A DNA stretch of 64,000 nt from Zoogloea sp. (GTDB lineage: Bacteria; Pseudomonadota; Gammaproteobacteria; Burkholderiales; Rhodocyclaceae), in NCBI GenBank assembly GCA_016703645.1, contig JADJBR010000009.1, positions 735,935 to 799,934 of the forward strand, read 5' to 3'. This document shows positions 10,447-33,624 of this stretch, one piece after another. The translations under genes were made by a program, and so were the position numbers. Position 1 is the stretch's first letter. Every line of letters starts with the position of its first letter. Below the pieces are notes generated by a model. That model was given only the letters and a program-made list of their open reading frames with translations, did no database searches and was not told the origin of the DNA.

Positions 10447-10447
10447 C

Positions 10448-11685: not shown

Positions 11686-12238
11686 GGTCGCCAAGCTGAT
11701 TTCGGCTTACCGTCAGCACCTCACCGTTCCCTGGCAGCCCGGTTTGGCCGCGATTCAGCGCGTCATCTTTGCCGTCTACGACAAGACGGATGAGCTGCGC
11801 CTACGCGCCAACGTTGAGGAGTTCGCCTTGGCGACCCAGCAAGCCGGCAAGCAGTGGCTGCTCCTGGATGTCACCAATGCCTTCCCTGAATGGATGGCAG
11901 CCCAGGAGTACCGGGACGCCTACTTCGAATGCCCCGAGGATTTGGCTGGATACCAGAACGGCGAACTGACCGAGTTCATCGCCGCCCTAAATGACAAACT
12001 CAAAACCCACATCAGCGCCGAAGCTGGCCCCGACACCGTCGTTGCCCTGCTCGGTGTTGGTACCCTCTTTGGGCTCGCTCGTGTTTCGTCCGTGGTAGAA
12101 GGTATCAAGGAAGCGGTGCAGGGTCGTATGCTAGTGTTCTTCCCTGGTGAGCATCATCCAGAAAATCACACCTACCGCCTCCTCGACGCGCGCGACGGCT
12201 GGAACTACCTGGCCGTCCCGCTGCTGGCCAAAGACTGA
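11675..12238 (+). CDS. brxB: BREX protein BrxB (DUF1788)
   Basis: 187 residues, normal for BrxB, a conserved BREX component required for defence whose molecular role is unclear. Visible family features are RVIFAVYDKTDELRLRA, KQWLLLDVTNAFPEW, VVALLGVGTLFGLARVSSVVE, GRMLVFFPGEHHPENHTYRL and LLDARDGWNYLAVPL. The gene sits between brxA-like and brxC and overlaps the former, so it is translationally coupled. Confidence 0.9.
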   Translation: MSSKVAKLISAYRQHLTVPWQPGLAAIQRVIFAVYDKTDELRLRANVEEFALATQQAGKQWLLLDVTNAFPEWMAAQEYRDAYFECPEDLAGYQNGELTEFIAALNDKLKTHISAEAGPDTVVALLGVGTLFGLARVSSVVEGIKEAVQGRMLVFFPGEHHPENHTYRLLDARDGWNYLAVPLLAKD

Positions 12239-12275
12239 CCCAACGTCCTCCAAACAATCCACCGCTAAGACCGCC

Positions 12276-15737: not shown

Positions 15738-15752
15738 GCGAAAGGACGCCCC

Positions 15753-16796: not shown

Positions 16797-17320
16797 AAGT
16801 GCGAGCCGACGGCTTCGAGTTCGAGTTCCCTGGCGCGCTGGATGCCTTCGTTTTCGACGAGAAGGACAAGTCACAGCCGAGCTTTCATGGACTCTCGCAC
16901 GCCATGAGGGCAGTGGACCTCGTAGTAGAGCTGCCGAACGACACCCTCTTCATCGAGGTGAAGGACTTCCACGCGCCCGACGACTATAACTTCAAGGCTG
17001 CGGCCAACGACGATGAGCAAGGCCAGCGGCGCGAACGGATGAACCATCTGCGCGACGTGCTAGTGCACAAGTTCCGCGATACCTGGCTCTACCGCTGGTC
17101 TGAACGCGCGGCAGGAACACCAGACAAGCCGGTGCGCTACCTGTGCGTGTTGAGCCTGGACAACGGTCTGCTCGGAACAGTACGCAAGGAGCTGCACCAG
17201 GCATTGCCAGCAGGAAGTGCCGGCCCTCGCTGGCAGCGCGAGTTGGCCACGGCCTGCGTCGTGCTGAACCCACAACGCTGGAACAGCGCCTTCCCTGCCT
17301 GGCCACTGAACCGCTACTGA
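16793..17320 (+). CDS. PD-(D/E)XK-like nuclease candidate, partner of the ATPase
   Basis: 175 residues. The core pattern HAMRAVDLVVELPNDTLFIEVKDF places an aspartate near residue 43 and an E-V-K near 55-57, spaced as in PD-(D/E)XK nucleases. A helix with many arginines follows (QGQRRERMNHLRDVLVHKF), then the beta strand RYLCVLSLDNGLLG. It overlaps the ATPase gene by 4 bases. Nuclease activity is inferred from the motif only. Together the two genes form a self-contained effector-like module between brxC and pglX. Confidence 0.65.
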   Translation: MKVRADGFEFEFPGALDAFVFDEKDKSQPSFHGLSHAMRAVDLVVELPNDTLFIEVKDFHAPDDYNFKAAANDDEQGQRRERMNHLRDVLVHKFRDTWLYRWSERAAGTPDKPVRYLCVLSLDNGLLGTVRKELHQALPAGSAGPRWQRELATACVVLNPQRWNSAFPAWPLNRY

Positions 17321-17333
17321 ACCCTGGGCGCCC

Positions 17334-20300
17334 ATGACAACGAATAACCAGCCCCTGCCCAAACTCCTTCGCAGCCAGCTCGAAGCCACCGTCAAGTACG
17401 CCCGCGACGTCTCGGAGAAAGGCGCCCACGCAGCCCTAAGCCAACTTGCTGTGGGCGAACCCAAGGCACCTGACTACCTGACCGACGAGCTCAAGGCCCT
17501 GCGCCGCCGCCTGCGTGCCCACGGCCGAGCCCTGGGCGATACCAAGGCGGCCGACGACACCAAGGGCCTGCAGCACCTGGTCTGGGAAGTGGCCTACGAG
17601 CACTGGCACCGCATGCTGTTCGCCCGCTTCCTGGCGGAGAACGGCCTGCTGCTGTGGGAGCCCGGCGCTGCGGTCTCGCTGGACGACTGCGAAGCCCTGG
17701 TGCAGGAAGCCGACCCGGCGATGAACCTGGGTGCCAAGACCAAGTGGGAGTTGGCCGGCGAGCTGGCCGCCCGCATGCTGCCCCAGGTGTTCAAGCCGCA
17801 GAGCCCGGTGTTTGAGCTGGCCTTCGCGCCCGAGCATCAGCGCGAGCTGGAGCGCCTGCTGGCCGCGCTGCCAACCGAGGTGTTCAAGGCCAGCGACAGC
17901 CTGGGCTGGGTCTACCAATTCTGGCAGGCCAAGCGGAAGGACGAGGTCAACGCCTCGGAAGTGAAGATTGGCGCCGACGAGCTACCCGCCGTCACCCAGC
18001 TCTTCACCGAGCCCTACATGGTGGACTTCCTGCTCCACAACTCGCTGGGCGCCTGGTGGGTAACACGCCACCCTGGCGAGACCTGTCCAGTGCCGCTGAC
18101 CTACCTGCGCACGCTGGAGGACGGCACGCCCGCCGCAGGCAAATTCGAAGGCTGGCCCGACCGCTTGAGAGAGTTCAATCTGCTCGACCCCTGCTGCGGC
18201 TCAGGCCACTTCCTGGTGGCGGCCTTCCTGATGCTGGTGCCGATGCGGATGGCCGCGGAAAACCTCTCCGCCAGTGAGGCGGTGGATGCGGTGCTGCGCG
18301 ACAACCTGCATGGCCTGGAACTGGACCCCCGCTGCGTGGAAATCGCCGTGTTCGCGCTGGCGCTGGCCGCCTGGCGTTTTCCAGACGAGGCGGGCGAGCC
18401 GCTGGGCGTGCGCGAGGACATGCCTGCGCCCAACATCGCCTGCTGTGGGTTGAAGGTGGCCGCACGAGCAGCAGACTGGATGGCGCTGGTCCCCGACGAG
18501 ATGCCGAACGCGACTTACCTGCGCCAGGAGCTGCGTCTGCTGCACGACAGCTTCTCCCAGGCACCGCTGCTGGGCAGCCTGCTCGACCCGGCGCGCAGCC
18601 TGAAGAAAGACCTTGCCACCAGCAGCTTTGACACCTTGCGTGACCTGCTGGAACGAGCGCTATCCACCGAGCGCCCGGCCACGCTGTGGGGTGAGGGCAA
18701 CGACATGCAGGACGAGGCTTGGGACCACGCCCTGACCGCTCGCGGTTTGCTGGATGCGGCGCGGGTGCTGGATATGCGTTACCACTTGGTGGTCACCAAC
18801 GTGCCCTATCTGGCGCGCGGCAAGCAGTCCGACGCGCTGAAGAGCTTCTGCGAGAGCCATTATCCAGAGGCTAAGAACGACCTGGCCAACGTGTTCCTGG
18901 AGCGTTGCCTGGAACTGTCCCAGCGTAGCGCCGCCGGCGTGGTCCAGATTGTGATGCCGCAAAACTGGCTGTTCCTCACCAGCTACAAGAAGCAGCGCGA
19001 AAGCCTGCTGAAGCGGGCACAGTGGAATTTGCTGGTGCGGTTGGGGGAGGGCGGATTCGACAGCCCACAAGCGGCTGGAGCGTTCATCATTCTTCTCACC
19101 CAGACCTACGCCACTGCGGACGAGACGTTTGCGTTGCACGGAGTGGATGCCAGCCGGCCAAAGGGGGCTGCGGATAAGGCCGCGCTGCTGCAGGATGGAG
19201 AGGTAGTGTCGGTGGGGCAGAAGGGGCTGCTAGGCAATCCCGATTCGCGAGTAAGCCTTGAAGCACTTGAGAATCACTCGGAGCTTCTTTCTCTAAATGC
19301 TGAGAGCTACCAAGGGCTTGTTACGGGAGACTTGGAGCGATTTGTAACCACGTTTTGGGAGCATCAGGAGCTGAGCGTTCGGGGGTGGCTACCGTTTCGA
19401 ACCACTATCGATGCAACAGATACTCCATTAGCAGGTGTTCACCACGTAATTCTTTGGGAGGAAGGGGTTGGTCAATTAGCTCGTTATGCTAAAGATTCGC
19501 GTGACCGGCTCCACGACATGCATGAGAGCGGGAATAAAGCTTGGGGGAGGCCTGGGGTTGCAATCAACCGAATGCGTGGCTTGAGGGTGGCACACTACTC
19601 AGGTGAGCATTTTGATAACAATGTTGCTGTCGTTGTCCCAAGAGAACGGAAATCGCTGCCGGCGATTTGGTGTTTTCTATCTAGCCAGGATTTTGCCGAG
19701 CACGTTAGGAGCCTAGATACGACACTCAAGGTTACCAACCAAACACTCCTTAAAGTTCCTTTCGACCTCGCTTACTGGCAACGAGTCGCCACCGAACGCT
19801 ATCCCAGCGGCCTGCCCAAACCCTATTCTGACGACCCCACCCAGTGGCTGTTCCACGGTCATCCGCAGCCTGCTGCCGACCCGCTGCAGGTCGCCGTCGC
19901 CCGCTTGCTCGGCTACCGCTGGCCGGCCGAGACCGACGCCGACATGGAACTCGCCGACGAGGCGCGCCAGTGGATTGCCCAGACTGACAAGCTCGCTGTC
20001 CACGCCGACGACGACGGCATCGTCTGCCTGCCCGCCGTTCGCGGTGAAAAGCCCGCCCACGAGCGCCTGCTGGCACTGCTCATTGACGCCTGGGAAACCG
20101 TCACCCCCGGCAGCTGGAAAACCTCCACCCTCGACCGCCTGCTGCTTGATGCCGACTGCGCGGGCAAGAGCCTGGAAGTGTGGCTACGCGAGAAGTTCTT
20201 CGAGCAGCACGCCAAGCGCTTCCACCACCGCCCCTTCATCTGGCACGTGTGGGACGGCCTCAAGGACGGCTTCGGCGCGCTGGTTAATTACCACCAGCTC

Positions 20301-20741
20301 GACGCCAAGAACCTGGAGCGCCTCATCCACACCTATTTGGGCGACTGGATTCGCCAGCAGGAAGCCGGCGTACGCGATAGCATCGACGGCGCCCAGACCC
20401 GGCTGGCCGCCGCCCAGGACCTGAAGCGCCGCCTGGCGCTCATCCTCGAAGGCGAGCCACCCTACGACATCTTCGTCCGCTGGAAGCCCCTGGCCGAGCA
20501 GCCCATCGGCTGGAACCCCGACCTCAACGACGGCGTGCGCCTCAACATCCGCCCCTTCATGACCGCCGAGGTCCTGCGCCACAACAAGAAGCCCAAACTC
20601 AACATCACCTGGGACAAAGACCGCGGCAAAGACGTGGAAAGCGCACCGTGGTTCCACAAGTTCAAGGGCGACCGCATCAATGACCACCATCTGACTCTCG
20701 CGGAAAAGCGCGCTGAGCGGGACAAGCTTAGTAAGGCCTGA
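17334..20741 (+). CDS. pglX: BREX adenine-specific DNA methyltransferase PglX
   Basis: 1135 residues, typical of PglX, the N6-adenine methyltransferase that marks host DNA at the BREX site. The SAM-binding motif I LLDPCCGSGHFLVAAF is at about residues 283-298, and a second helper motif LHGLELDPRCVEIAVFALALAAW follows. The catalytic motif IV reads NVPY at residues 489-492 (VTNVPYLARGKQ) in place of the usual NPPY. The C-terminal third would hold the target-recognition domain. Bases near 19240-19760 are visibly more AT-rich than the rest, which is common for exchanged recognition regions. Confidence 0.95.
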   Translation: MTTNNQPLPKLLRSQLEATVKYARDVSEKGAHAALSQLAVGEPKAPDYLTDELKALRRRLRAHGRALGDTKAADDTKGLQHLVWEVAYEHWHRMLFARFLAENGLLLWEPGAAVSLDDCEALVQEADPAMNLGAKTKWELAGELAARMLPQVFKPQSPVFELAFAPEHQRELERLLAALPTEVFKASDSLGWVYQFWQAKRKDEVNASEVKIGADELPAVTQLFTEPYMVDFLLHNSLGAWWVTRHPGETCPVPLTYLRTLEDGTPAAGKFEGWPDRLREFNLLDPCCGSGHFLVAAFLMLVPMRMAAENLSASEAVDAVLRDNLHGLELDPRCVEIAVFALALAAWRFPDEAGEPLGVREDMPAPNIACCGLKVAARAADWMALVPDEMPNATYLRQELRLLHDSFSQAPLLGSLLDPARSLKKDLATSSFDTLRDLLERALSTERPATLWGEGNDMQDEAWDHALTARGLLDAARVLDMRYHLVVTNVPYLARGKQSDALKSFCESHYPEAKNDLANVFLERCLELSQRSAAGVVQIVMPQNWLFLTSYKKQRESLLKRAQWNLLVRLGEGGFDSPQAAGAFIILLTQTYATADETFALHGVDASRPKGAADKAALLQDGEVVSVGQKGLLGNPDSRVSLEALENHSELLSLNAESYQGLVTGDLERFVTTFWEHQELSVRGWLPFRTTIDATDTPLAGVHHVILWEEGVGQLARYAKDSRDRLHDMHESGNKAWGRPGVAINRMRGLRVAHYSGEHFDNNVAVVVPRERKSLPAIWCFLSSQDFAEHVRSLDTTLKVTNQTLLKVPFDLAYWQRVATERYPSGLPKPYSDDPTQWLFHGHPQPAADPLQVAVARLLGYRWPAETDADMELADEARQWIAQTDKLAVHADDDGIVCLPAVRGEKPAHERLLALLIDAWETVTPGSWKTSTLDRLLLDADCAGKSLEVWLREKFFEQHAKRFHHRPFIWHVWDGLKDGFGALVNYHQLDAKNLERLIHTYLGDWIRQQEAGVRDSIDGAQTRLAAAQDLKRRLALILEGEPPYDIFVRWKPLAEQPIGWNPDLNDGVRLNIRPFMTAEVLRHNKKPKLNITWDKDRGKDVESAPWFHKFKGDRINDHHLTLAEKRAERDKLSKA

Positions 20742-20743
20742 CC

Positions 20744-21862
20744 ATGGGTTTCTGGCACACAGGTTACGAAGAGTTCCATGAGCCCACCGGGCTGCCGGAG
20801 TTCGATTACCGACAGCCCCAGCAGGTTCGTTACGCATGCGAGCATTGTGGTCTGCACTTTGGTGACGTAGAGGAACTGCGACGCCACCGCTTCGAGCAGC
20901 ATCCTCTTCGGCAGCCCGTATTGCTGATACGCGGCCGCACCAGGGATTCGATGCCTCTTGTGATTTCAACCCCACTGCTACCCTCGGACGTTGTCATCGA
21001 GGATGCAAGCAAGTGCTTTGTGAATGGGGCCTCTGTTGCGCCTTCTGCGCTTCCTCAGCTACTCGCGGCGATGTCGCGGCAGTTCGTGGAGCTGACACTG
21101 CAGAACGAGGGCGCGAGCACCCATTGTGCACTGGACTTCCAGATTGCCGCAGAGGCTGACCTGGCTGGAGTTGAAGCCGCTTTTCTGCGTCTGGCCAGGG
21201 ACCGAACATTGGGCATCGAGGCCATTGCCAGGTTCATTGAGGATTGCCGCGCCTTCAAGACGGCGAGACTTTACTGCGACGGTATCTGTCACTACCTCTA
21301 CGGGGTGCTTGCCAAGGAGCAGGCTCCCGATACGGGCCTGCACCAGGGGCAATACAAAGAGCGATATCTGCGCGCCCAGGATGAACTGTCGGGTTTCGAC
21401 CGCCCCCTGGCAAACAGCATCCGGTCCCTCGTTGCATTCCATTTCAACCACTTCGCGGATGCCGCTACCTTGGCAGCAGAAGGGGGCCTGCGGCATGCTG
21501 CGCGTGCCTTTGAGGGCTTGCTGAAAGGCCTTCCTTGGCACTTTGAGCTGGAACGTTCAGCCGCAACTGGCGGTGCGGTGGAAGACTTGCTGACCGACCA
21601 GGATACGCTGGAGATTCTGGCAGATGCGAGCCATGGCCTCTTTGAGCTGACGACCAGGACAGATGTCCTGCAGGGCCATCTCAGGCGTGCCGGGATGGGC
21701 TATGACCGGCTCAAACGCGCACTCCTAACCTGCGAAGCACTTGCGGCCTGCCAGGACACCGACTCCCATGTTGCCGCACGGAGACTTGCTCGGGAGTATC
21801 TGCCCCAAGCGGATACACGTGCCTGGGCAGAGGCCATGCTTGAAAGACTGAAAACACCATGA
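20744..21862 (+). CDS. C2H2 zinc-finger protein of the Hsp70-linked BREX module
   Basis: 372 residues, no family recognised beyond one motif. Residues about 29-52 form a C2H2 finger, YACEHCGLHFGDVEELRRHR then FEQHP (C-x2-C-x12-H-x4-H), unusual in bacteria. The remainder appears helical (AIARFIEDCRAFKTARLYCDG, then RAFEGLLKGLPWHF) with several scattered cysteines. It begins two bases after the pglX stop and overlaps the next gene by 4 bases, so it belongs to the operon. A DNA- or protein-binding adaptor is possible; I cannot assign a function. Confidence 0.8.
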   Translation: MGFWHTGYEEFHEPTGLPEFDYRQPQQVRYACEHCGLHFGDVEELRRHRFEQHPLRQPVLLIRGRTRDSMPLVISTPLLPSDVVIEDASKCFVNGASVAPSALPQLLAAMSRQFVELTLQNEGASTHCALDFQIAAEADLAGVEAAFLRLARDRTLGIEAIARFIEDCRAFKTARLYCDGICHYLYGVLAKEQAPDTGLHQGQYKERYLRAQDELSGFDRPLANSIRSLVAFHFNHFADAATLAAEGGLRHAARAFEGLLKGLPWHFELERSAATGGAVEDLLTDQDTLEILADASHGLFELTTRTDVLQGHLRRAGMGYDRLKRALLTCEALAACQDTDSHVAARRLAREYLPQADTRAWAEAMLERLKTP

Positions 21863-23169
21863 CAAAGAACACTAAAACCAAGCGGGTACTGACGACCGAT
21901 GCCAAGACGGGGCAGTCTTGGTGGTCTGAGCCGATGACGTTTCGACGGAATCGAAGCAAGTTGGAAGCCGAGATGGCTAACCAGCCAAGCGCAGAAAAGA
22001 CAGAACATGCTCCTGCGCCACAGAGTGATGTGGCCGCAGACGTCCCGTTTGAGGCGCCCACAGACGAGACTGCAAGCATTGTGGCGAGTGAACAGGCTAC
22101 TGCCGCGGCAGCACCGGTTTCGCCCTCACCAGACACTGAAGGTGTGCCTGCCAAGAAAAAAGCAGACATCGAGAATCTGGAGCAGCTCATTGCTGAGGCG
22201 TACGCTCGAAAGGGCAAGCCACTGGGCGTTTCCACTAAAATTCAGCGGCTGCTGTCCCAGAACCATAGCCTCGACGAGGAGGCCATGAATCGCCTGATGC
22301 TACTGGTTACGGATGACCTGCAGCTGGCTGTTCCCCGGCAAATCCTTATCGCCAGTTGTGAAGTGAGTGGTTTGCCTCCCGTTAGGGCTGCACTCAGGGA
22401 CTTTGTGCAAGCGCTCATGGGGCAGAGCCCCCTGTTTGCCAAGGATGGACTCCGTGCGGCCATCAATAATCTGCCCGAAGCGCCTTCCATGGCTGAAGCG
22501 CTGCGCATTGTTGCAGCCTATGAGCCCGCCAAGGCGGATGACAAAGGCCCGCTCAAACCCAAGGAGTTGCAGACCCTTCGGCGCAACGCCACAAACCTGT
22601 TGGTGACTTGGTTTGCGCTCCATCGAAGCCTGAACCCGGAGGAGCTCTCACGGTTGCTTTTTGAAAGCGTGTGGGAGCCTGCGGCCAAGGAATTGGTGGA
22701 TGACACTGCTCGTCTTCGGGTGCTGACCGAAATAGAGCATCCGGCTGGGGTCGGACTGGCTTGCCAACGCTTTCATCGCCAAGCCGCAGAGGCGCGCCTA
22801 GGCCAGGAACAAGCCCGTAGCGAGGCCAGTGCCCTATGCCAGGAGTTGGAGGCACTGAAGGCCCAGCTGCAACAGGCACAGGCGGAGCGAAGCACACTCA
22901 AGGCCGAGCTCGAGGCCTTGCAGGCGGATAGTGCCCGGGCGCTGAGCGACCTGAAGGCTCAGCGCGGAGCCGACCGGATGCATCTGCAGCACGACATTGA
23001 GCAGTTGCGGGGTCGGATGGTGCGCCGCTTGAACGACAGCGTCGAGATGCTGGAGGTGGGCTTGAAGGCATTGCAGAACAAGACACCCCGGACCGAGGTG
23101 ATGCTGGAACGTGCGGAGCACGTCGTGGAAGCCCTAAGGGCAGAGCTTGGAAACCTGAGAGAGGAATAA
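21859..23169 (+). CDS. Coiled-coil protein preceding the BREX-linked Hsp70
   Basis: 436 residues in three parts. There is a low-complexity, acidic/alanine-rich linker at about residues 40-100 and a helical globular domain at about 105-300 (IAEAYARKGKPLGVSTKIQR, then NLLVTWFALHRSLNPEELSR). A long coiled coil runs from about 315 to the end (QEQARSEASALCQELEALKA, then HDIEQLRGRMVRRLND). The globular start resembles no enzyme I know. The coiled coil directly upstream of an Hsp70 gene invites comparison with GrpE-like exchange factors, but there is no sequence signature for this. Start and stop couple tightly to both neighbours. Confidence 0.8.
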   Translation: MTKNTKTKRVLTTDAKTGQSWWSEPMTFRRNRSKLEAEMANQPSAEKTEHAPAPQSDVAADVPFEAPTDETASIVASEQATAAAAPVSPSPDTEGVPAKKKADIENLEQLIAEAYARKGKPLGVSTKIQRLLSQNHSLDEEAMNRLMLLVTDDLQLAVPRQILIASCEVSGLPPVRAALRDFVQALMGQSPLFAKDGLRAAINNLPEAPSMAEALRIVAAYEPAKADDKGPLKPKELQTLRRNATNLLVTWFALHRSLNPEELSRLLFESVWEPAAKELVDDTARLRVLTEIEHPAGVGLACQRFHRQAAEARLGQEQARSEASALCQELEALKAQLQQAQAERSTLKAELEALQADSARALSDLKAQRGADRMHLQHDIEQLRGRMVRRLNDSVEMLEVGLKALQNKTPRTEVMLERAEHVVEALRAELGNLREE

Positions 23170-23173
23170 GCGG

Positions 23174-24709
23174 ATGTCGGCAGATGAGGTGGTGTTGGGT
23201 TTTGACTTTGGCACGACGAACAGTTTGGCTTCTGTGGTGGTCGGTGGTGAGCTGATTACCTTCCTCGATAACGAGCAGCCCATCCCTTCGGTGGTGAGTT
23301 TTGAGGGCGGCAAAGTTGAAGTTGGCCGCAAGGCACATGACAAGCTGACAAGTGCGGGGCTTGGCGTCCAAGGGAGCACTGTACGCTCTCCCAAGAGCCT
23401 GCTTGGCAAGGACGAGCTGATTATTGACGGCGTTCGTCGTGACCCCGTCCAGATGGTGGAGCACGTGCTTCACCACGTACGGGAATTTGTCCTGCAAACC
23501 AAGACCGGGCGCGGACTCAAGATGGAGCGTGTTGTTGCGACCATTCCTGTGAACATGGAGGGAAGGCGCAGGGGGCTGCTGCGTCAGGCCTTCCGTCAGG
23601 CGGGCATGAGCGTTGTCCAGTTCGTCCACGAGCCCTTGGCCGCCTTGTACGGATACCTCCGTTCATCCGAAAACACGGAAGACCTTATCAAGCGCTACAA
23701 CGGCAAGCTGCTGCTTGTTTTTGATTGGGGTGGCGGCACGCTGGACTTGACCCTTTGCCGGGTACTCGACGGGCTGTTGGTGCAGGTGGCCAACGACGGT
23801 ACCGATGAGGTGGGAGGGGATGTCTTTGACGATGAATTGCGCAACGAAGTCGAGCGCCGTTCTCGTGCAGAGCAGAGGGTTGGCGCAGAGGTTGACCCCA
23901 TGCCGGATGCGCGTAAACGCCTGCTGCACGAGTGCGAAAGGGCCAAGATACGCCTCAGCGACCGCAACACCTGGAACGTTTACGTAGACCCTTATTACCA
24001 GAGCGATGACCAGGCAGACCTTCAGGTCAATCTGTCGCGTGAGGACCTGCAAAGCATCGTCGGTCACCTCGTCCGGAAAGGAGTTGCCCGAATCGAGCGT
24101 CTGTTGGAGCGTGAGGGTTACTCGACCGCCTCGGTTGAACTGTGCCTGGCAACCGGCGGGATGGTGAACATGCCGTTGGTGAAAAACCGGCTCGATGAGT
24201 TGTTTGGACCAGGGCGTGTGCATGTATCCCGCAGAAGCGCTTCAGCGATTGCCGAGGGAGCTGCGTGGGTTGCACACGACAAGGCGCGGCTCCATCTGGC
24301 TAAGAACGTTGAGCTGGCTCTGGCCCGCAACTCCTACATGCCCTTGCTGACCGCGGGATTGGAAATGCCCCTGGAGCGCGAGCATCGCCGTGAGCGCTTT
24401 TCCCTCTACTGTGTCGACCCGAGTGACGGTTTCGGTAAGTTCAGCCTGGTCAGCCCTCATCGGCCCGGGCCACGAGTTTTGCCCGACGACAAACGTCGTC
24501 CATTGCAGAACATCGTAGTCAAGGTGGATGCAAAGGCACAACCATTCCGGGAGCGCCTGGAGCTTGAGGTTGTGGTCAATGAGGACCTGATTCTGAAGGC
24601 GGAAGCGTGGTCGCTGAATCAAAAGGGACGGGCAGAGGCCGAGATTCATGACCTCGAGTTTGCTCTTGCTACCCCAGTGCGCGGAGTGGGTGGATTCGCT
24701 CGGGACTGA
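23174..24709 (+). CDS. Divergent Hsp70/DnaK-family ATPase in BREX locus
   Basis: 511 residues, shorter than DnaK (about 638). The actin-like ATPase domain is clear: phosphate-1 loop GFDFGTTNS at residues 9-17, VVATIPVNMEGRRRGLLRQA with VQFVHEPLAALYGY, phosphate-2 loop VFDWGGGTLDLTL near residue 181, and the adenosine loop LATGGMVNMPLVKNRL near 325. The usual DnaK GGSTRIP is replaced by GGMVNMP. About 130 beta-rich residues follow the ATPase domain and could be a reduced substrate-binding domain; the helical lid is absent. No J-protein or GrpE gene is recognisable nearby. The role in defence is not established and is inferred from its place inside the operon. Confidence 0.93.
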   Translation: MSADEVVLGFDFGTTNSLASVVVGGELITFLDNEQPIPSVVSFEGGKVEVGRKAHDKLTSAGLGVQGSTVRSPKSLLGKDELIIDGVRRDPVQMVEHVLHHVREFVLQTKTGRGLKMERVVATIPVNMEGRRRGLLRQAFRQAGMSVVQFVHEPLAALYGYLRSSENTEDLIKRYNGKLLLVFDWGGGTLDLTLCRVLDGLLVQVANDGTDEVGGDVFDDELRNEVERRSRAEQRVGAEVDPMPDARKRLLHECERAKIRLSDRNTWNVYVDPYYQSDDQADLQVNLSREDLQSIVGHLVRKGVARIERLLEREGYSTASVELCLATGGMVNMPLVKNRLDELFGPGRVHVSRRSASAIAEGAAWVAHDKARLHLAKNVELALARNSYMPLLTAGLEMPLEREHRRERFSLYCVDPSDGFGKFSLVSPHRPGPRVLPDDKRRPLQNIVVKVDAKAQPFRERLELEVVVNEDLILKAEAWSLNQKGRAEAEIHDLEFALATPVRGVGGFARD

Positions 24710-25026
24710 TGGGGCAAGACTCAGTGAGTGGTTCAATCGGCGAACCAGGGGACTTGGTGATGCGTTCCAATCTGGCATCCCGGGAAGACCCCAGTCTGGT
24801 GCCCGGTGAGGTGATGTATCGCATCAACCCCAGCTACTTCCGAGTCGAACGAGACCCTCCGAAGGTTCAAGACGAGGAGCGCCTCTACTACAAGCCTTGT
24901 GCCTACTGCAAACGTTCTTCCAATGACCCGCTTTGTCAGTGTGCGACGTCGGAAGCCTCTCGATTGCAAACTGTCCATGCGTCGAGCCGAGAGGCTACAG
25001 GCATGGCGTCACGACGCTCCCCATAG
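24709..25026 (+). CDS. Small cysteine-cluster protein after the Hsp70 gene
   Basis: 105 residues. The ATG overlaps the Hsp70 stop (TGATG), so translation is coupled. Residues about 65-79 carry C-x2-C-x8-C-x-C (CAYCKRSSNDPLCQC), which could bind zinc. The rest is polar, with no predicted membrane segment. Not recognised as a known family. Confidence 0.65.
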   Translation: MGQDSVSGSIGEPGDLVMRSNLASREDPSLVPGEVMYRINPSYFRVERDPPKVQDEERLYYKPCAYCKRSSNDPLCQCATSEASRLQTVHASSREATGMASRRSP

Positions 25027-25056
25027 ACAAACCCGCAGACAGTGGAAAGGAGCGCC

Positions 25057-25284
25057 ATGTTTGAATCGACGACCCAGCAGGAACTTCGCGCGCAGATGGA
25101 GCAGCATCTCCTTATGGTGGAGGAAGTCCTCGGCGGTATGGACCAGTTTGTCCAAAGGCTTGAGCGGCGCATCGCCCGCATTGAAGAAGGTTTGGGGCTT
25201 GAACCCGATGGGCTGTCGGCATCAGGGTGGGTTGCAGACCTCCAGAGATTGAAGGCCCAAGTGGCCAAGATGCGCCAACCCTGA
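25057..25284 (+). CDS. Small coiled-coil protein
   Basis: 75 residues from the ATG at 25057, which has AAGGAG just upstream. Almost the whole chain is amphipathic helix (ELRAQMEQHLLMVEEVLGG, then FVQRLERRIARIEEGLG), suggesting a dimeric or trimeric coiled coil. A possible partner of the neighbouring coiled-coil or Hsp70 protein. No family recognised. Confidence 0.7.
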   Translation: MFESTTQQELRAQMEQHLLMVEEVLGGMDQFVQRLERRIARIEEGLGLEPDGLSASGWVADLQRLKAQVAKMRQP

Positions 25285-25298
25285 GCGAGCGGCGCTCT

Positions 25299-26294
25299 AT
25301 GCACCCGTTACCGTCACCCCGCCTTCAGGCGTGGGAGAGAAAGTATTGCGCCAAGACTGACCTCCCCCCCGGGGAGGCTTTTCAGCACGCTTTCTCACGA
25401 TTTCTGAAGCTCAACAGGGAATCGCTGCTGGATGTGGCCATGTCTGCCGCCTCCGTTCAGGTCTCTGCGGGGACCGGTCCGAAAGACTTTGACCCGCTGC
25501 TGCTGAAGGCAATACATGACACCAACCCGTCCTTGGCTGAGGCTGGCCTGTTCTCGTTAGGCGGCGAGCCCTTGCAGGGAGCGGTCAATACCGCCAAAGG
25601 GAAGTATTTCGAGTATCTGGTTGCGGAGCGGTTGAACCAGGGAGGGCAAGTCGGGCCGCTCCTGCTTCAAGATGGGCAAAAAGCGGTACTGGCTGAATCC
25701 ATGACCCAGCCTGGCTGGGACCTGCAAATCGTCGACGAGCATGGCTCGGTGGTGGAGTACCTCCAGCTCAAGGCCACTGACAGCGTGGGGTATATCCGTA
25801 GCGCACTTGAGCGCTATCCAGACATCGAGATTCTGGCGACGACCGATGTTTCCGACAGCGGTCTGGTGCTGGATAGTGGCATCTCGGACCAACTGCTTCG
25901 AGAGCAGGTTGGTGAGGCTATCGATGGCGTTGATGTCCCCCTGTCCGAGCTGTTTCTCGACCATTTTCACCCCTTGCTGCCTCTGGCGACCATGGCGCTC
26001 TATGAGGGATACCACCTCAAAATCGGTGCCCAGTCGTTCGATACGTTCAAACTGGCTCTTGCCCGCCGTGGGCAGCGCATCGTAGTGACGCAGCTGATTG
26101 GTGCCGCGGTGTACGGACTTGGTGGAGGACTTTGGTCTGTGCCCATCGCCTTTGCGGGAGGGCTTGCCTTTGACCGCACCATCAACCAGCAGGCCATGGC
26201 CGATGCCTACGCATCGCACAGGGAGCGGCTCCTCGCCCTGCGCTTGCACCAACAACAACGACTGATGAATGAGGATGGGCCATGGGTTTCCTGA
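25299..26294 (+). CDS. Membrane-linked, restriction-endonuclease-like protein
   Basis: 331 residues from the ATG at 25299. The central part contains GWDLQIVDEHGSVVEYLQLK followed by ATDS: an aspartate, then a Q-x-K on a beta strand, as in Mrr-type variants of PD-(D/E)XK folds. The preceding GAVNTAKGKYFEYLVAERLN helix also fits. Near the C-terminus there is a hydrophobic stretch (VTQLIGAAVYGLGGGLWSVP, then IAFAGGLAF) that could be one or two membrane segments. The gene overlaps its downstream neighbour by 13 bases. Nuclease activity and membrane location are inferred. Confidence 0.65.
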   Translation: MHPLPSPRLQAWERKYCAKTDLPPGEAFQHAFSRFLKLNRESLLDVAMSAASVQVSAGTGPKDFDPLLLKAIHDTNPSLAEAGLFSLGGEPLQGAVNTAKGKYFEYLVAERLNQGGQVGPLLLQDGQKAVLAESMTQPGWDLQIVDEHGSVVEYLQLKATDSVGYIRSALERYPDIEILATTDVSDSGLVLDSGISDQLLREQVGEAIDGVDVPLSELFLDHFHPLLPLATMALYEGYHLKIGAQSFDTFKLALARRGQRIVVTQLIGAAVYGLGGGLWSVPIAFAGGLAFDRTINQQAMADAYASHRERLLALRLHQQQRLMNEDGPWVS

Positions 26295-27217
26295 ATATGC
26301 TCTTTAGCGGTATCGGCTCCATTCTCGGGGTGATTGCAGAGACCGTCAGCACCGTTGTCAGCGCTGTCCGGGAAGGGCTCGAGAGTTTTGTTTCCACCCG
26401 AGGAACAACGCCCTCCCGCGTGGCGAGCGAGGCCGAACGACGTCGTGACCGCTTACGTGAGGTGAACGATGAAATCATGCACTTACGTAACATCAGGATG
26501 GGGTCTGGCTCCATATCCGACCAAGACCGCAAGCGATGGAGTGTGCTGCGTGAGGAGCGAGATGAGCTCATGGCCGGACTTAACCAGGCGAAGGAGGTCA
26601 AGGCTGCCGAGAAGATTCTGCAGTCAGAGGGTGTGATTGAGAAGGTCGAGGTGGACCTGCATACCACCCATGTCCTCCAGTACAACGCCTTTGCTGACAT
26701 CCTTGGCAAGAAGTGTCCGAAGTGCGCCCGCCAAATGAAGCTGCAGTGGCAGCGAGACTTGAGTGTGGTCGGGCCGAAGGAGTTCTTCTGGGGTTGTACA
26801 GGCTGGTATGTCCAAACCCCGAAGGGACATGCGTGCAACCACCGCGAGCCCTTGCAGCGAAGTGACTATGGTTTGATGACCGATTTGTCCGCCCCGGAAT
26901 TTTCAATGACGGCCGATGAGTTTGGCGAAATCCTGACTAACCCCAGCACGACGAACATCATCTCGACGCGCCTTCAGGACTTGCGCTCAGACCTTCAGGC
27001 AAGGAAGGCAGGCATTGAGCTGGCTACGTGCCCGGTACATGGAGAGAACATGGTGCTGCGTCAGAAATCCAACCCCTCTGGACTGTTGGACGCCTATTTC
27101 TTGGCCTGCCCGCACTGGCTACCCAACAATCAGGGGTGTGCCTTCATCGAAAAGTTGAAATCGGGCTCGCAGCTGGCTGCGCTGCTGAAGTCTGAAACAG
27201 GTCAAGGGATTCTCTGA
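26282..27217 (+). CDS. Zinc-ribbon protein of the BREX module
   Basis: 311 residues. There is an N-terminal hydrophobic/amphipathic segment (GFLNMLFSGIGSILGVIAET), then a charged coiled coil at about residues 50-110 (ASEAERRRDRLREVNDEI). Two cysteine clusters follow: CPKCARQ with WGCTGW and HACNHR, then CPVHGENMVLRQ with LACPHWLPNNQGC. These resemble tandem zinc ribbons of topoisomerase type. No catalytic motif is seen. It could bind nucleic acid at or near the membrane with the preceding nuclease-like protein. Confidence 0.7.
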   Translation: MGFLNMLFSGIGSILGVIAETVSTVVSAVREGLESFVSTRGTTPSRVASEAERRRDRLREVNDEIMHLRNIRMGSGSISDQDRKRWSVLREERDELMAGLNQAKEVKAAEKILQSEGVIEKVEVDLHTTHVLQYNAFADILGKKCPKCARQMKLQWQRDLSVVGPKEFFWGCTGWYVQTPKGHACNHREPLQRSDYGLMTDLSAPEFSMTADEFGEILTNPSTTNIISTRLQDLRSDLQARKAGIELATCPVHGENMVLRQKSNPSGLLDAYFLACPHWLPNNQGCAFIEKLKSGSQLAALLKSETGQGIL

Positions 27218-27219
27218 AC

Positions 27220-29562
27220 ATGGTGAAGAAGGTCGAACGTTGCCTAGGCGAGGCGCTTGCCCAGGCAGTCATGGCTGCCGCGAAGGGCAATTCACAAACA
27301 TCGGTACCGGTTGCTGCAGTGCTTTGGCCCGACAGGGATGGCGCATGGACGCCTGGGCTCGTGCAACTGCAACAGCGTCTGCCTGACCTGTTCGTCGTGG
27401 GTGCCTATGACCCCGAGCACCGCACGGGGCCCGCAATCTGGCTCAAGACGGCCATCTCCGGGGCTTTGCCAGAAGTCGCTCCAAAGGGGGTGCCGGTGAT
27501 TTACCTGCCGGGCGTGAGCCGTGCCGAGTTGCGGGCCATAGAGAGTTGCCCACGTGACCTGCAGCCTCTTGCAGAGTTGCAGTACCGCGGAGTGTTCTGG
27601 AGCCAGGCCAACGCCAAGGACTGGACCCTGAGTGCGTTCCTGTCCTCAAAGAACGGCGGGCTTGAGCTGGATGTAGCCCAGGACAAGGCTACACAGGAGG
27701 CGCTGCGGCAGGCCCTCGAGGCCGGTGTCTTGCTTGACCGCCCTGTTGCAGAGCTCCAGGGGCGTCAAATCAATGGGGAGTGGCTCCACAGCCTCTTGGC
27801 TCCGAACCCCACGCGGGACCTGTTGCTCTGGATGAATGACGCCGATAGTGCCCGTGCGCAGTGGGCAGGGGTGCGTTGGGATGTCTTCAGCAAGCGCTGC
27901 AAAGCTGATTTTGGGTTTGACCCTGTGGCCGATGGCCTGCTGGTCGCGGCAGAGCTGCTTGCCAAGGGAAAGGGGAAGTGGGCAGCAGTCTCCGAGCTCT
28001 ACCGAGACTCCTACACGAGCTTTCCCAAGGTCTATGACCTGCTCCTTAAGGTCCAGCCACCTCAATTGGGACTGTTCGACGAACTCGACCAGTTGGCAGG
28101 CTATCCCCAGGCCAACGAAGAGCGGGAAGCGAACTTGCGCTATGCGCTGGCCGCCTGTGATTCGATGGACTCGGCACAGGCTCGTGCAGCCATCCACAAA
28201 GCCGAGCAGGCGCATGGGGGCCGTCGCGGTTGGCTGTGGCGGCGCATGGGGCAATCCCCCCTTGCTGTCGCTCTGGGGCACCTGTCTCGTTTGGTTGAGC
28301 TGAGCACCAAGCTTCCATCTAGCAGCTCACCTGAGCAGCTTGCAGCGAGTTACCAGCAGCACGGCTGGCAAGTGGATGCCGCCGCTCTGGACGTCCTCGC
28401 AGCCGTTCAGGCAAAGGCTGACGTGGATGCCGTATCAGCTGCTCTGCGCTCGGTGTACCGTCCCTGGCTCGATGCAGCCGCTGTACGCCTGCAAGAGGCC
28501 GCAAAATCCGTTGGCGGGCTTCCCCCCTTGAGTCCTTCGTCTTCCGGTGAGACAGAGGACGGGGTGTGCACCGTTTTCGTCGACGGATTGCGCTACGACG
28601 TGGCGGTGCGGTTGAAGGAGCGACTGGCCGAACTCGGTAAGCCGGCGTTGAGCGTCTCTTGGACCAGCATGCCCTCGGTGACGGCATCAGGTAAGCCGTG
28701 GTGCTCCCCGGTGCGAGATTGGGTCGCCGGCACGAAGGAGGACGCCGACTTCCAGCCGAGAGTAGCGGCGGATGGCAAGCCATTGTCGGCCTACAACCTC
28801 CGCAAGCTCCTCGCGGAGACGGGGGTTCAAGTTCTCGACAAACATGAGTCCGGAGACCCCCAGGGGCGCGCCTGGACGGAATCGGGAGACCTGGACCATT
28901 ATGGTCACGAGCACGGCATCAGGCTCGCCAGAGACCTCGACGTCCAGCTGAATCAGGTGATGGAGCGCGTTGAAGAGCTTATCCAGGCTGGCTGGCAGCG
29001 GTTCCGCATCGTGACCGACCATGGCTGGCTTCTGTTGCCTGGTGGGCTACCCAAGACCGAGCTTCCGATGCATCAGGTCGAAACCCGTTGGGGCCGCAGT
29101 GCAATCCTGAAGGAATCTGCCTTTGGCACCTCCCTGACCTTCGGTTGGGACTGGTGCAAAGAGGTGCAGATTGCCTATGCCCCGGGCGTCTCCTGCTTTG
29201 TGGCGGGGACAGAGTACGCCCATGGAGGCCTCAGTCTCCAGGAGTGCCTGGTGCCCGTTATCACTCTGGATGTCGTAGCTTTAGCTTCGCCAACAGCCAA
29301 TGTCACAATCAAGGCTGTAACGTGGCGAGGGCTGCGCTGCGTTGTCGAGGTGGAGCCCTCCATGGCGGGGTTGGCGGCGGATATTCGCACCAAGCCTGCG
29401 TTGGCATCGAGTTCGCTGGCTGCCAGCGTCAAGACGATTCAGGATGGCAAGGCCAGTCTTGCGGTCGCGGACGATGAGAACCTGGGTGTGGCGGCCGTGG
29501 TTGTCGTACTGGGGCCTGATGGGGCTGTGCTTCAGAAGAGCCCGACGACCGTGGGGGGCTGA
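27220..29562 (+). CDS. pglZ: BREX phosphatase-fold protein PglZ (type B-like)
   Basis: 780 residues. The alkaline-phosphatase-superfamily PglZ domain is in the C-terminal half: metal-binding FVDGLRYDVAVRLKERL near residue 451, SWTSMPSVTASGKPWCSP, HYGHEHGIRLARDLD, and FRIVTDHGWLLLPGG near residue 598. The N-terminal 400 residues are an alpha-helical BREX-specific region. A core BREX protein thought to act with PglX and the ATPase; its substrate is unknown. It starts two bases after the zinc-ribbon gene. Confidence 0.94.
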   Translation: MVKKVERCLGEALAQAVMAAAKGNSQTSVPVAAVLWPDRDGAWTPGLVQLQQRLPDLFVVGAYDPEHRTGPAIWLKTAISGALPEVAPKGVPVIYLPGVSRAELRAIESCPRDLQPLAELQYRGVFWSQANAKDWTLSAFLSSKNGGLELDVAQDKATQEALRQALEAGVLLDRPVAELQGRQINGEWLHSLLAPNPTRDLLLWMNDADSARAQWAGVRWDVFSKRCKADFGFDPVADGLLVAAELLAKGKGKWAAVSELYRDSYTSFPKVYDLLLKVQPPQLGLFDELDQLAGYPQANEEREANLRYALAACDSMDSAQARAAIHKAEQAHGGRRGWLWRRMGQSPLAVALGHLSRLVELSTKLPSSSSPEQLAASYQQHGWQVDAAALDVLAAVQAKADVDAVSAALRSVYRPWLDAAAVRLQEAAKSVGGLPPLSPSSSGETEDGVCTVFVDGLRYDVAVRLKERLAELGKPALSVSWTSMPSVTASGKPWCSPVRDWVAGTKEDADFQPRVAADGKPLSAYNLRKLLAETGVQVLDKHESGDPQGRAWTESGDLDHYGHEHGIRLARDLDVQLNQVMERVEELIQAGWQRFRIVTDHGWLLLPGGLPKTELPMHQVETRWGRSAILKESAFGTSLTFGWDWCKEVQIAYAPGVSCFVAGTEYAHGGLSLQECLVPVITLDVVALASPTANVTIKAVTWRGLRCVVEVEPSMAGLAADIRTKPALASSSLAASVKTIQDGKASLAVADDENLGVAAVVVVLGPDGAVLQKSPTTVGG

Positions 29563-29655: not shown

Positions 29656-31701
29656 ATGCAACTCGATGACTTGGACAGGAAGGCCACGGAAGCCTTTGAG
29701 GGCTATGTGGTCCGCAAGGACCTGGTGCGGACGTTCAGTCGCCAGTTTCCTGTTCCCACCTACGTCGTGGAGTTCCTGCTTGGCCGCTACTGCGCCACCA
29801 CCGACGAGGCCGAAATCCAGGAGGGCCTGGAAATCGTCCAGCGCCAGCTCTCGTCACGAACGGTGAAGGCGGGGGAGGAGGAGCTTTTCAAGGCGCGCGC
29901 CCGGGAGTCTGGCTCGGTCAAAATCATCGACATCATCACAGCCAGGCTTGACGCCAAGAGCGACTCGTACGTCGCCTCGCTCCCCAGTCTGCGCCTCACG
30001 GATGTCCGGATTGACCCGGACCTCATCAAGGAGCACGAGCGCATCCTGACGGGGGGCTTCTACGCTGAAGTCACCCTGGCCTACGACGCATCGATTGCCC
30101 AGGAAAAGAGCGGTCGCCCCTTCGGTGTGCAGTCCCTGCGTGCTATCCAGCTGTCCAAGCGGGATGTGCTGGCAGACCTGAGCACCGGCCGGAACAAGCT
30201 GACCACGCTCGAATGGAAGGATTTTCTGCTGCGCAGTGTGGGGCTCGAGCCAGAGACGCTCAGTGACCGCGCCAAGGACGCCTTTCTCCTACGAATGGTC
30301 CCCTTTGTCGAGCGCAACTACAACATGGTGGAGCTTGGCCCCCGCGGGACTGGCAAGTCGCACCTCTTTCAGCAAGTGTCGCCCTACGCGCATCTGATTT
30401 CAGGGGGGAAGGCGACGGTGGCCCGCATGTTCGTGAACAACGCGAACGGTCAGCGGGGCCTAGTCTGCCAGTATGACGTGGTGTGCTTCGACGAAGTATC
30501 GGGCGTGTCCTTCGACCAGAAGGATGGCGTGAACATCATGAAGGGCTACATGGAGAGCGGTGAGTTCTCCCGCGGCAAGGAAAGCATCCGTGCCGACGGC
30601 TCCATTGTCCTGGTGGGCAACTTTGATGTGGATGTCGAGCATCAGCAGCGCGTCAGCCACCTGTTCGGCCCGCTGCCCCCCGAGATGAGGGATGACACGG
30701 CCTTCATGGACCGCATCCACTGCTACTTACCTGGCTGGGACGTGCCCAAGCTCAACCCCGGCCTCTTCACCAATCACTTCGGCCTGGTCAGCGACTTCCT
30801 GTCGGAGTGCTTCACCCAGCTCCGCAATCAGAGCAGGGTCTCGGTGTTGCAGGGACGGGTCTTCTGGGGAGGTGCCCTGTCAGGTCGAGACCTGAACGGC
30901 GTGAACAAGACCGTAAGCGGGCTGCTGAAGCTGCTCTACCCCAATGCGGAGACGCCCGTCAGCGACGAGGACCTGGAATGGGCGGTACGTTTGGCCCTCG
31001 AGGTGCGCCGGCGCGTCAAGGAGCAGCAGAAACGCATCGGTGCCGCTGAGTTCCGCAACACGCACTTCAGCTATACCCTGGGGGCCGAAGGGGTCGAGAA
31101 GTTCGTGTCCACCCCTGAGCTGCAGAGCCAGGCGGGTATCGGTGACGAGCCCCTGGAGTGCGGGCAGATTTGGACACTCAGCCCCGGGGGCCAGGATGAG
31201 CATGCCGGGTTGTTCCGGCTGGAAGTGACCGAAGGCCCGGGCAGCGGTGTCCGTGTGCTGAACAACCCGGTCCCGCCGGCGTTCAAGGAGTCAATCCGCT
31301 GCGCCGAGCAAAACCTGTACGCGCGGGCCCCGCAACTGGTGGGCGACCGTGACCCCAGGGCACATGAGTTCTCGGTGCAGCTGCGCGGCTTCGATGCGGC
31401 CAAGAGCGGCGCCAAGACTTCGGTAGCGTGCCTCATCGCGCTGGCCAGTGCACTCCTCAGAAAGTCGGTGCGTGGCGGCCTCATCGTGGTGGGCGAAGTC
31501 ACGCTCGGTGGAACCATCGAGCCGATACACAACGCGGTCACCCTGGCCGAGCAGGCCGTTGAGAAAGGGGCGAAGTCCTTGCTGCTGCCGGTTGCCTGTC
31601 GGCGCCAGCTCTTCGACCTCTCGGATGACATGGCCACGAAGCTCGACATCGAGTTCTACCAGGATGCGCGCGATGCGCTCCTGAAGGCGCTGACAGAGTA
31701 A
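29656..31701 (+). CDS. brxL: Lon-like BREX ATPase/protease-fold protein BrxL
   Basis: 681 residues, the normal size for BrxL. The N-terminal DNA-binding-like region is followed by an AAA+ core with Walker A GPRGTGKSHLFQQ at about residue 227 and Walker B VVCFDEVSGVSF near 275. The C-terminal Lon-like domain contains KSGAKTSVACLIALASALL and VVGEVTLGGTIEPI. BrxL forms DNA-binding hexameric assemblies in type 1 BREX. The start ATG at 29656 lies 93 bases after pglZ in an otherwise empty spacer. Confidence 0.95.
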   Translation: MQLDDLDRKATEAFEGYVVRKDLVRTFSRQFPVPTYVVEFLLGRYCATTDEAEIQEGLEIVQRQLSSRTVKAGEEELFKARARESGSVKIIDIITARLDAKSDSYVASLPSLRLTDVRIDPDLIKEHERILTGGFYAEVTLAYDASIAQEKSGRPFGVQSLRAIQLSKRDVLADLSTGRNKLTTLEWKDFLLRSVGLEPETLSDRAKDAFLLRMVPFVERNYNMVELGPRGTGKSHLFQQVSPYAHLISGGKATVARMFVNNANGQRGLVCQYDVVCFDEVSGVSFDQKDGVNIMKGYMESGEFSRGKESIRADGSIVLVGNFDVDVEHQQRVSHLFGPLPPEMRDDTAFMDRIHCYLPGWDVPKLNPGLFTNHFGLVSDFLSECFTQLRNQSRVSVLQGRVFWGGALSGRDLNGVNKTVSGLLKLLYPNAETPVSDEDLEWAVRLALEVRRRVKEQQKRIGAAEFRNTHFSYTLGAEGVEKFVSTPELQSQAGIGDEPLECGQIWTLSPGGQDEHAGLFRLEVTEGPGSGVRVLNNPVPPAFKESIRCAEQNLYARAPQLVGDRDPRAHEFSVQLRGFDAAKSGAKTSVACLIALASALLRKSVRGGLIVVGEVTLGGTIEPIHNAVTLAEQAVEKGAKSLLLPVACRRQLFDLSDDMATKLDIEFYQDARDALLKALTE

Positions 31702-33612: not shown

Positions 33613-33624
33613 AGGAGACCGACC

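Follow-up and report, generated by a model that had tools for sequence, protein, structure and literature searches.

The BREX operon and its guest genes

The window analysed here, a 64,000-nucleotide stretch of a Zoogloea sp. genome, carries an operon in which PADLOC models match BrxA, BrxB, BrxC, PglX, PglZ and BrxL. All six lie in one operon, and BrxC and PglZ also score above their NCBIfam cut-offs, which bears out the BREX call made in a preliminary description of this DNA. The NCBIfam model matching PglZ is titled 'BREX-1 system phosphatase PglZ type B', and PglX scores 322 bits against the NCBIfam BREX-1 PglX model, below the cut-off of 500. Judged by these model matches, the host operon is a type-1 BREX with PglZ type B. 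It shares with such systems the common core brxA-brxB-brxC-pglX-pglZ-brxL, every member of which is model-matched, and beyond this core it holds three guest units: a HEC-02 pair, an Hsp70 module (module A) and a nuclease module (module B). The HEC-02A/B pair, named from its PADLOC matches, occupies the brxC-pglX interval, and its HEC-02B gene has no match in Pfam at 0.01. The other two units fill the pglX-pglZ interval, where seven plus-strand open reading frames (ORFs) lie between the end of pglX (20741) and the start of pglZ (27220), as described previously. Their packing is as tight as had been reported, with successive gaps from pglX to pglZ of 2, -4, 4, -1, 15, 14, -13 and 2 bases. The features are as follows.

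10891..11685, + strand: brxA (PADLOC BrxA, E=1.2e-103)
11675..12238, + strand: brxB (PADLOC BrxB, E=9.6e-75)
12273..15737, + strand: brxC (NCBIfam BREX_BrxC, 884 bits, cut-off 400; the start is an internal ATG of our choice)
15753..16796, + strand: guest in the brxC-pglX slot, AAA/ABC-type ATPase (PADLOC HEC-02A, E=8.2e-129)
16793..17320, + strand: guest partner of the HEC-02A gene (PADLOC HEC-02B, E=4.5e-64)
17334..20741, + strand: pglX (brxX), methyltransferase (PADLOC PglX, E=0, full length)
20744..21862, + strand: module A gene 1, C2H2 zinc finger protein, znf (invariant ligands, profile, structure model)
21859..23169, + strand: module A gene 2, coiled-coil protein, cc (structure model, position in relatives)
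23174..24709, + strand: module A gene 3, Hsp70-like ATPase lacking the DVLLLD linker, hsp70 (Pfam HSP70, E=2.9e-40)
24709..25026, + strand: C-terminal cysteine tail of the Hsp70 in a separate frame (matches the C-terminus of relatives' Hsp70 genes)
25042..25284, + strand: module B gene 1, small protein, coiled-coil-like in our reading, sm5 (adjoins the other two genes in loci L099, L102 and L103)
25299..26294, + strand: module B gene 2, PD-(D/E)XK-like nuclease, nuc6 (PADLOC PDC-M72B, 4.4e-17)
26282..27217, + strand: module B gene 3, zinc-ribbon protein, znr7 (cysteine conservation, hydropathy)
27220..29562, + strand: pglZ type B (NCBIfam BREX_PglZ_1_B, 877 bits, cut-off 400)
29656..31701, + strand: brxL (PADLOC BrxL, 1.9e-303)

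Two modules in the pglX-pglZ interval

The seven genes had been read as a single BREX block centred on the Hsp70. We found a smaller travelling unit, limited to znf, cc and hsp70 with its tail. Searching 84,980 species genomes yielded 44 loci, 43 of which, spanning five phyla, were kept; L072 was dropped as a generic Hsp70 of 24% identity, a short match on a viral contig (L083) was not used, and L029 coincides with one of our three query sequences. The order and strand of znf-cc-hsp70 are fixed in the window and in all 42 genome loci with a contig that extends as far as the first gene (for 14 of these 42, clustering or position identified the middle gene, as opposed to tblastn matching with the window protein), and the same order is found on a conjugative plasmid. 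The neighbourhood check proposed in the preliminary description, namely whether this Hsp70 clade constantly accompanies BREX, gave a negative answer: BREX genes lie in the fetched flanks of 8 of 43 loci. On the Hsp70 tree, the BREX label changes 7 times, and 61 of 500 shuffles gave a count as low, so BREX-associated copies do not cluster clearly above chance. These results identify module A as a conserved unit that moves horizontally and is not confined to BREX.

Module B, consisting of sm5, nuc6 and znr7, accompanied the Hsp70 module in 0/43 loci and was found contiguous and Hsp70-free in the fetched stretches of three other loci (L099, L102 and L103), so it is separate from module A. Within the nuclease-like protein, E105, D141 and Q156-x-K158 are invariant in an alignment of 4 sequences, and a Gly-rich segment is borderline hydrophobic (hydropathy 1.48). 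The zinc-ribbon protein has a hydrophobic N-terminal segment (hydropathy 1.78 at residue 11) and two zinc-ribbon-like clusters, all seven cysteines of which are invariant in 4 homologues. Module B is a separate predicted nuclease module that is probably membrane-anchored. It resembles the PADLOC candidate system PDC-M72 in one protein: the nuclease-like protein matches PDC-M72B across residues 90-210 only. Of the PADLOC pair, M72B alone was matched, and its match is confined to the nuclease-like protein, the two partner proteins having none.

Comparison with other BREX operons revealed that the contents of the interval vary. Module A was absent from all 15 other PglZ-B BREX loci, in 13 of which the slot is fully visible (pglX is missing from the contigs of L022 and L025, leaving the slot visible in part; G196, a weak match of 27%, was left out of the count). 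A very close BREX relative (L084; brxC 85%, pglZ 66%, brxL 89%) lacks the block and carries another gene in its place, and other BREX relatives carry GmrSD genes or AAA_21 (OLD-like) genes there. Together with the mostly BREX-free distribution of module A, this largely undercuts the proposal of a BREX-bound block. This BREX lineage has an insertion slot between pglX and pglZ, occupied here by two independent three-gene modules. The main text of PMC12839542 describes auxiliary and backup effectors embedded in BREX, with extra genes tightly inserted between core genes, and the window operon resembles those loci in having guest genes packed between BREX core genes. Term searches of that main text returned no Hsp70, chaperone or dynamin, and module A differs in containing no recognisable nuclease.

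If the seven genes instead formed one BREX subtype, with the Hsp70 as a dedicated switch of the BREX complex, tight spacing throughout would be expected, as seen, and the Hsp70 module does lie inside the pglX-pglZ interval in 6 of 43 genome loci and one viral contig, suggesting that co-expression with BREX was selected, at least there. However, 35 of the 43 loci have no BREX gene in the fetched flanks (27 with full 10-kb flanks, 8 with a flank cut short by the contig end), and the 15 PglZ-B loci and the distribution of module B also argue against a BREX subtype, which we consider very improbable. We rejected the seven-gene unit because modules A and B occur separately and BREX genes are near few copies of module A.

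The Hsp70 and its partners

The protein encoded by hsp70 is an Hsp70 by its Pfam match, as had been recognized, and it is as divergent as had been claimed. The positions K70, E171, D194 and T199, the catalytic residues of DnaK, are kept in 44, 45, 45 and 45 of 45 sequences, respectively. The DVLLLD interdomain linker of DnaK is absent from all 45, and the adenine-loop position R345 (DnaK GGxxRMP) is N or A in 40. The altered adenosine loop that had been noted, GGMVNMP, is present, and its change from the GGQTRMP of DnaK is family-wide. Against the four best NCBIfam DnaK/HscA models the protein scores 118-124 bits, where the cut-offs are 620-823. Its alignments thus indicate intact ATPase residues and loss of the DnaK adenine-loop arginine and interdomain linker. 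The Pfam HSP70 match stops at profile position 372 of 599, so nothing is detected beyond the Hsp70 ATPase domain, and protein length and sequence are consistent with a lidless Hsp70. The cysteine-cluster gene of the preliminary description does exist as an ORF, but it is not an independent gene: it corresponds to the Hsp70 tail, which is fused in 44/44 relatives examined.

The first protein of module A combines a C2H2 zinc finger, a small beta domain and a C-terminal helical-repeat (TPR-like) domain (model pLDDT 88). Its profile search returned zinc-finger chains, and C32, C35, H48 and H53 are invariant in 40/40 aligned homologues, the window included, in agreement with the earlier C2H2 call. 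The second protein has a largely disordered N-terminal part, a helical bundle (107-290) and a long coiled coil (295-435; model pLDDT 84), and a homologue or ORF occupies the same place in all 42 loci that reach that far.

The DnaK-DnaJ-GrpE machine combines an Hsp70 with a zinc-binding and a coiled-coil partner, and module A resembles it in composition. It differs in lacking the DnaK linker and adenine-loop arginine, and neither partner has a J-domain or GrpE family match in the libraries it was scanned against. The trio could be a dedicated chaperone that folds or assembles large defence neighbours (BrxC, PglX, dynamins, SNF2 helicases) and senses nothing. The intact ATPase residues and the frequent occurrence of large multidomain neighbours are consistent with such a chaperone. 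The missing linker and partner signatures argue against it, as do module A copies with no large neighbour close by and the 15 PglZ-B BREX loci that show no such trio; we therefore regard it as unlikely.

Other Hsp70-like proteins are associated with defence. In the part of PMC11090510 concerned with CoCoNuT and related McrB systems, Hsp70-like ATPase units occur with coiled coils and often TerY-P genes. Module A is similar in placing an Hsp70-like ATPase with coiled coils in a defence operon. The CoCoNuT unit, as set out in that part, is fused to an McrB GTPase or McrC homologue, whereas the module A Hsp70 is a separate protein with zinc-finger and coiled-coil partners. The CoCoNuT markers (NxD-clade McrB-type GTPase, McrC homologue) were not found among the window operon proteins in the libraries scanned. 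The arrangement also has no name in Pfam, NCBIfam, PADLOC or PHROGs and no description in the literature searched, in line with the novelty first suggested for it; the three-gene unit is apparently undescribed.

A predicted role in anti-phage defence

Outside BREX, module A neighbours dynamin-PLD, GmrSD, DUF499/DUF1156, type I RM, Leo, TerY-P-like and Dnd- or DISARM-like genes, and some copies stand alone. By our own, partly weak assignment, 29 of 43 loci have a defence neighbourhood. Of the 70 neighbouring genes within 1 kb, 33 belong to families shared by different loci, and at 6-10 kb it is 1 of 76, in a control that left out the near-identical loci L034, L057, L058, L059, L068 and L071 and from which L037 (ORF miscall) and L069 (contig end) fell out. 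We infer from this gene neighbourhood that module A functions in anti-phage defence.

A mobile-element or stress function (plasmid or island maintenance, or counter-defence), with the defence genes as fellow travellers in islands, would account for the conjugative plasmid, for a viral contig (L081) on which we read ParB-like and recombinase-like ORFs beside module A, and for several genomes in which, by our ORF reading, it sits among metabolic genes. Yet module A is inserted inside operons, only a few bases away from pglX and pglZ or 23-34 bases from the dynamin-PLD gene, which is more intimate than a shared island, and the BREX partnership recurs on separate branches of the Hsp70 tree. We judge this function distinctly unlikely.

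The best explanation, which we hold somewhat more probable than its alternatives combined, is a slot with two modules in which module A is a travelling Hsp70 ATPase switch serving anti-phage defence. A switch or sensor role is our likeliest guess for the Hsp70. ATP would drive it from one conformation to another, and the zinc-finger/helical-repeat and coiled-coil proteins would be its dedicated partners. Its non-DnaK-like C-terminal part and tail would probably recognise a state of protein or nucleoprotein that infection brings about, and the signal would be passed on to whichever effector adjoins the module (dynamin-PLD, GmrSD or the BREX complex). A precedent for using an Hsp70 machine to notice infection is bNACHT25, whose phage sensing, according to the section of PMC12169576 on this protein, requires host DnaJ, apparently via its partnership with DnaK; there the chaperone is the host's own and the defence gene encodes the NACHT protein, unlike in module A. 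More tentatively, at somewhat below even chances, znf-cc-hsp70 may be an anti-phage system that is self-sufficient and so far undescribed, which would make it the first with a stand-alone Hsp70 at its core. In this reading it would be an ATP-clocked sensor that binds virus-made protein or nucleoprotein, and natural selection would have connected it again and again, as a plug-in activator, to defence operons such as those of BREX, DUF499 (BREX-related) and dynamin-PLD.

For BREX, these findings add a view of the pglX-pglZ interval as a guest slot occupied by exchangeable modules, and they correct a tempting misreading, in that sharing one operon is not the same as forming one system. If module A is antiviral, Hsp70, the standard detector of misfolded proteins, became a dedicated component of bacterial immunity and a unit handed between defence systems as a plug-in, which would offer a testable explanation of the way in which several large defence systems detect infection. 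Module A moves between a wide variety of bacterial defence systems and could be a new means of sensing infection.

Composition of the window's BREX operon

The type-1 BREX operon is complete on the + strand (brxA, brxB, brxC, pglX, pglZ and brxL, by PADLOC models), and its PglZ belongs to type B (877 bits in NCBIfam, where the cut-off is 400). We rate this operon as a novel form of known BREX. Between pglX and pglZ lie the seven ORFs exactly as listed in the preliminary description, with gaps of -13 to 15 bases. The main features are as follows.

10304-10879, + strand: PIN-domain gene (Pfam PIN, 1.6e-07), ending 11 bases before brxA
15753-17320, + strand: HEC-02A/B guest pair, a PADLOC candidate pair that fills the slot between brxC and pglX
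20744-25026, + strand: module A, with genes for a C2H2 zinc-finger protein, a coiled-coil protein and an Hsp70 with a cysteine tail
25042-27217, + strand: module B, comprising sm5 (small, coiled-coil-like), nuc6 (nuclease-like) and znr7 (zinc-ribbon)
31714-32040, + strand: 108-residue ORF, 12 bases past brxL
32401-34419: IS21-type transposase pair, between BREX and Shango
34754-40753, - strand: Shango system (PADLOC: SngC 34754-37024, SngB 36993-38288, SngA 38285-40753)

The 108-residue ORF looks like an EVE/PUA-type reader domain; Pfam and PADLOC gave no match for it at the limits used. Shango sits directly downstream of BREX, beyond the transposase pair, and the adjoining of these two systems makes the window a defence island. 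In related loci the slot between brxC and pglX holds an ABC-type ATPase with a partner (L018) or an AlbA-like ORF (L023; both assigned by eye), and in L033 and L037 its guest is a gene for a dynamin fused to a PLD-like domain (dynamin-PLD).

Module A is a mobile three-gene unit

An alignment of three Hsp70s, used to scan 84,980 species at one genome per species, yielded 44 loci, 43 of them true members (one being the source of a query sequence), in Pseudomonadota, Actinomycetota, Candidatus Binatota, Acidobacteriota and Myxococcota. Zinc-finger, coiled-coil and Hsp70 genes follow one another in this order on a single strand in all 42 loci whose contig extends to the first gene; in 14 of these, the coiled-coil protein of the window has no tblastn match and the middle gene was recognised by clustering with the others or, for L063 and L066, solely from its position. 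In the zinc-finger protein the zinc ligands are invariant (40/40). Module A is also carried, with its first gene interrupted by an IS3-family element, by a conjugative plasmid of Paenarthrobacter, and occurs on three viral contigs (L080, L081 and L082), one of them within BREX. Against Pfam, NCBIfam, PADLOC and PHROGs, the zinc-finger and coiled-coil proteins gave weak generic finger or coiled-coil matches and no family model, and we found no published description of module A in the literature searched. Within that literature, the closest published case of an Hsp70 in defence operons is that of CoCoNuTs and their relatives, where, in the portion of PMC11090510 available to us, it is fused to McrB or to the McrC homologue.

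The window's Hsp70 has 511 residues and matches Pfam HSP70 (2.9e-40) only across the ATPase domain (profile end 372 of 599), scoring far under the curated NCBIfam cut-offs for DnaK and HscA. Among 45 aligned family members, the counterparts of DnaK K70, E171, D194 and T199 are retained in 44, 45, 45 and 45, respectively. The altered adenosine loop proposed from the sequence is borne out, as the position of DnaK R345 is N or A in 40/45, and the DVLLLD linker is missing from every member. With catalytic residues kept and both linker and loop arginine lost, the protein is very probably an active ATPase that lacks the usual interdomain coupling of DnaK. What had been described as a separate cysteine-cluster gene turns out to be the tail of this protein: it is fused to Hsp70 in 44/44 relatives, including the nearest, L037. 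The strict pattern LYYxPCxxCxR...CxC ends 41 of these 44, and the remaining three have a cysteine tail with other spacing or lead-in. In the window assembly the two parts are in different frames, the tail ORF beginning at the last base of the Hsp70 stop codon.

Module A, module B and the BREX slot

The preliminary description had proposed a single, BREX-bound seven-gene block, which the comparison does not uphold. BREX genes are near only 8 of 43 module A loci; of the 35 others, the 10-kb flanks are complete for 27, and 8 are on shorter contigs. The window's arrangement, with module A in the interval from pglX to pglZ, recurs in L031, L033, L037, L043, L049, L070 and the viral contig L080, accompanied by a GmrSD gene in the first three; in L035 module A follows brxL, and in L029 it is flanked by no more than pglX and brxL remnants. 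Mapping BREX association onto the Hsp70 tree requires seven changes, each of them demanded by well-supported branches, and its clustering is not clearly above chance (61 of 500 label shuffles were as low).

Genomes of the class (274) and of the order (399) were searched in reverse with PglZ; leaving aside one weak hit, this returned 15 further PglZ-B BREX loci, and none of them shows module A (slot fully visible in 13). Three of these loci (L019, L020 and L089) have nothing in the slot between pglX and pglZ. As far as contigs extend, the others carry different genes there, for example an SMC/AAA-type ATPase protein (L084), a NERD-helicase (L085), GmrSD with UvrD (L086) and an AAA_21 (OLD-like) protein (L088). 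The BREX proteins of L084 are 85% (brxC), 66% (pglZ) and 89% (brxL) identical to those of the window. This variation among PglZ-B relatives identifies the slot as an exchange site. BREX loci are known to take up auxiliary genes, according to the part of PMC12839542 available to us, and a term search of its main text gave no Hsp70.

Genes sm5, nuc6 and znr7 were seen in none of the 43 module A loci and form a module of their own. Searches with nuc6 against 399 genomes and znr7 against 274 gave three loci each besides their own; in L099, L102 and L103 the three genes are contiguous, with no Hsp70 or BREX in the fetched stretch, and in the other three loci just one of the genes was found. Nuc6 matches the PADLOC candidate PDC-M72B, and its residues E105, D141 and Q156-x-K158, which do not vary across four homologues, make up a pattern that is PD-(D/E)XK-like by our own motif assignment. 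Znr7 is hydrophobic at its N-terminus and carries two clusters of cysteines, seven in all and each invariant.

Neighbours and possible role of module A

Neighbours were counted in the fetched flanks, with families taken from scans of representatives rather than of every gene. By our assignment a defence-type neighbour is present in 29 of 43 loci (weakly so for a helicase fragment in L045 and a PLD/ZacB-like gene in L059) and absent from 14. As an internal control, genes in families common to several loci made up 33/70 within 1 kb, 10/69 at 1-3 kb, 17/116 at 3-6 kb and 1/76 at 6-10 kb, BREX operons contributing chiefly to the middle bins.

Dynamin-PLD is near eight loci, and in L034, L041, L042 and L044 a gap of 23-34 bases separates its end from the zinc-finger gene downstream. 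Over the eight it lies upstream of module A or in the other BREX slot; the example at L032:4337-7261 (970 residues) has the PLD-like domain at the C-terminus, a part with a further match to the C-terminal end of one PADLOC BrxL model. Other recurring neighbours are SNF2-type helicases (6 loci, one a fragment), GmrSD (4), DUF1156 methyltransferase (3), type I RM (3), DUF499 with Swt1-like HEPN (2), Leo-type dynamins (2), and vWA and PP2C genes (2), plus a kinase in L071; DndB, a DISARM-like MZB protein, an AAA_21 ATPase and Mrr nucleases occur in single loci. The protein c3, which has 445 residues and no Pfam match, is near module A in 14 of 17 Actinomycetota loci and on the plasmid L017. It sits after the Hsp70 gene (for example L064:11436-12773), at 2 bases in four loci; in L071 (Arthrobacter), TerY-P-like kinase, vWA and PP2C genes (13087-16959) lie downstream of module A and c3.

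Because the three proteins occur together in every readable locus, they probably form one machine; the choice of neighbours suggests that it would be useful to very different effectors, and tight insertion in BREX and next to dynamin-PLD genes points to selection for co-expression. A probably active but uncoupled ATPase of the Hsp70 kind, with its own tail and two dedicated partners, would resemble a nucleotide-timed switch. The simplest account is that module A may be an infection sensor that arms an adjacent effector, or acts itself where it is alone; the preliminary description had suggested a sensor or switch role for the Hsp70. The data establish the make-up of module A, its mobility, its sequence features and its neighbourhoods, and from there a defence role, complex formation and sensing are inferred. 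The chief rival is that module A would serve large defence proteins as a chaperone of their own. A use of chaperone machines in infection sensing is shown by bNACHT25, whose phage sensing needs DnaJ, apparently via DnaK, according to the part of PMC12169576 available to us. Module A by itself would be a new kind of system, if shown to be antiviral.
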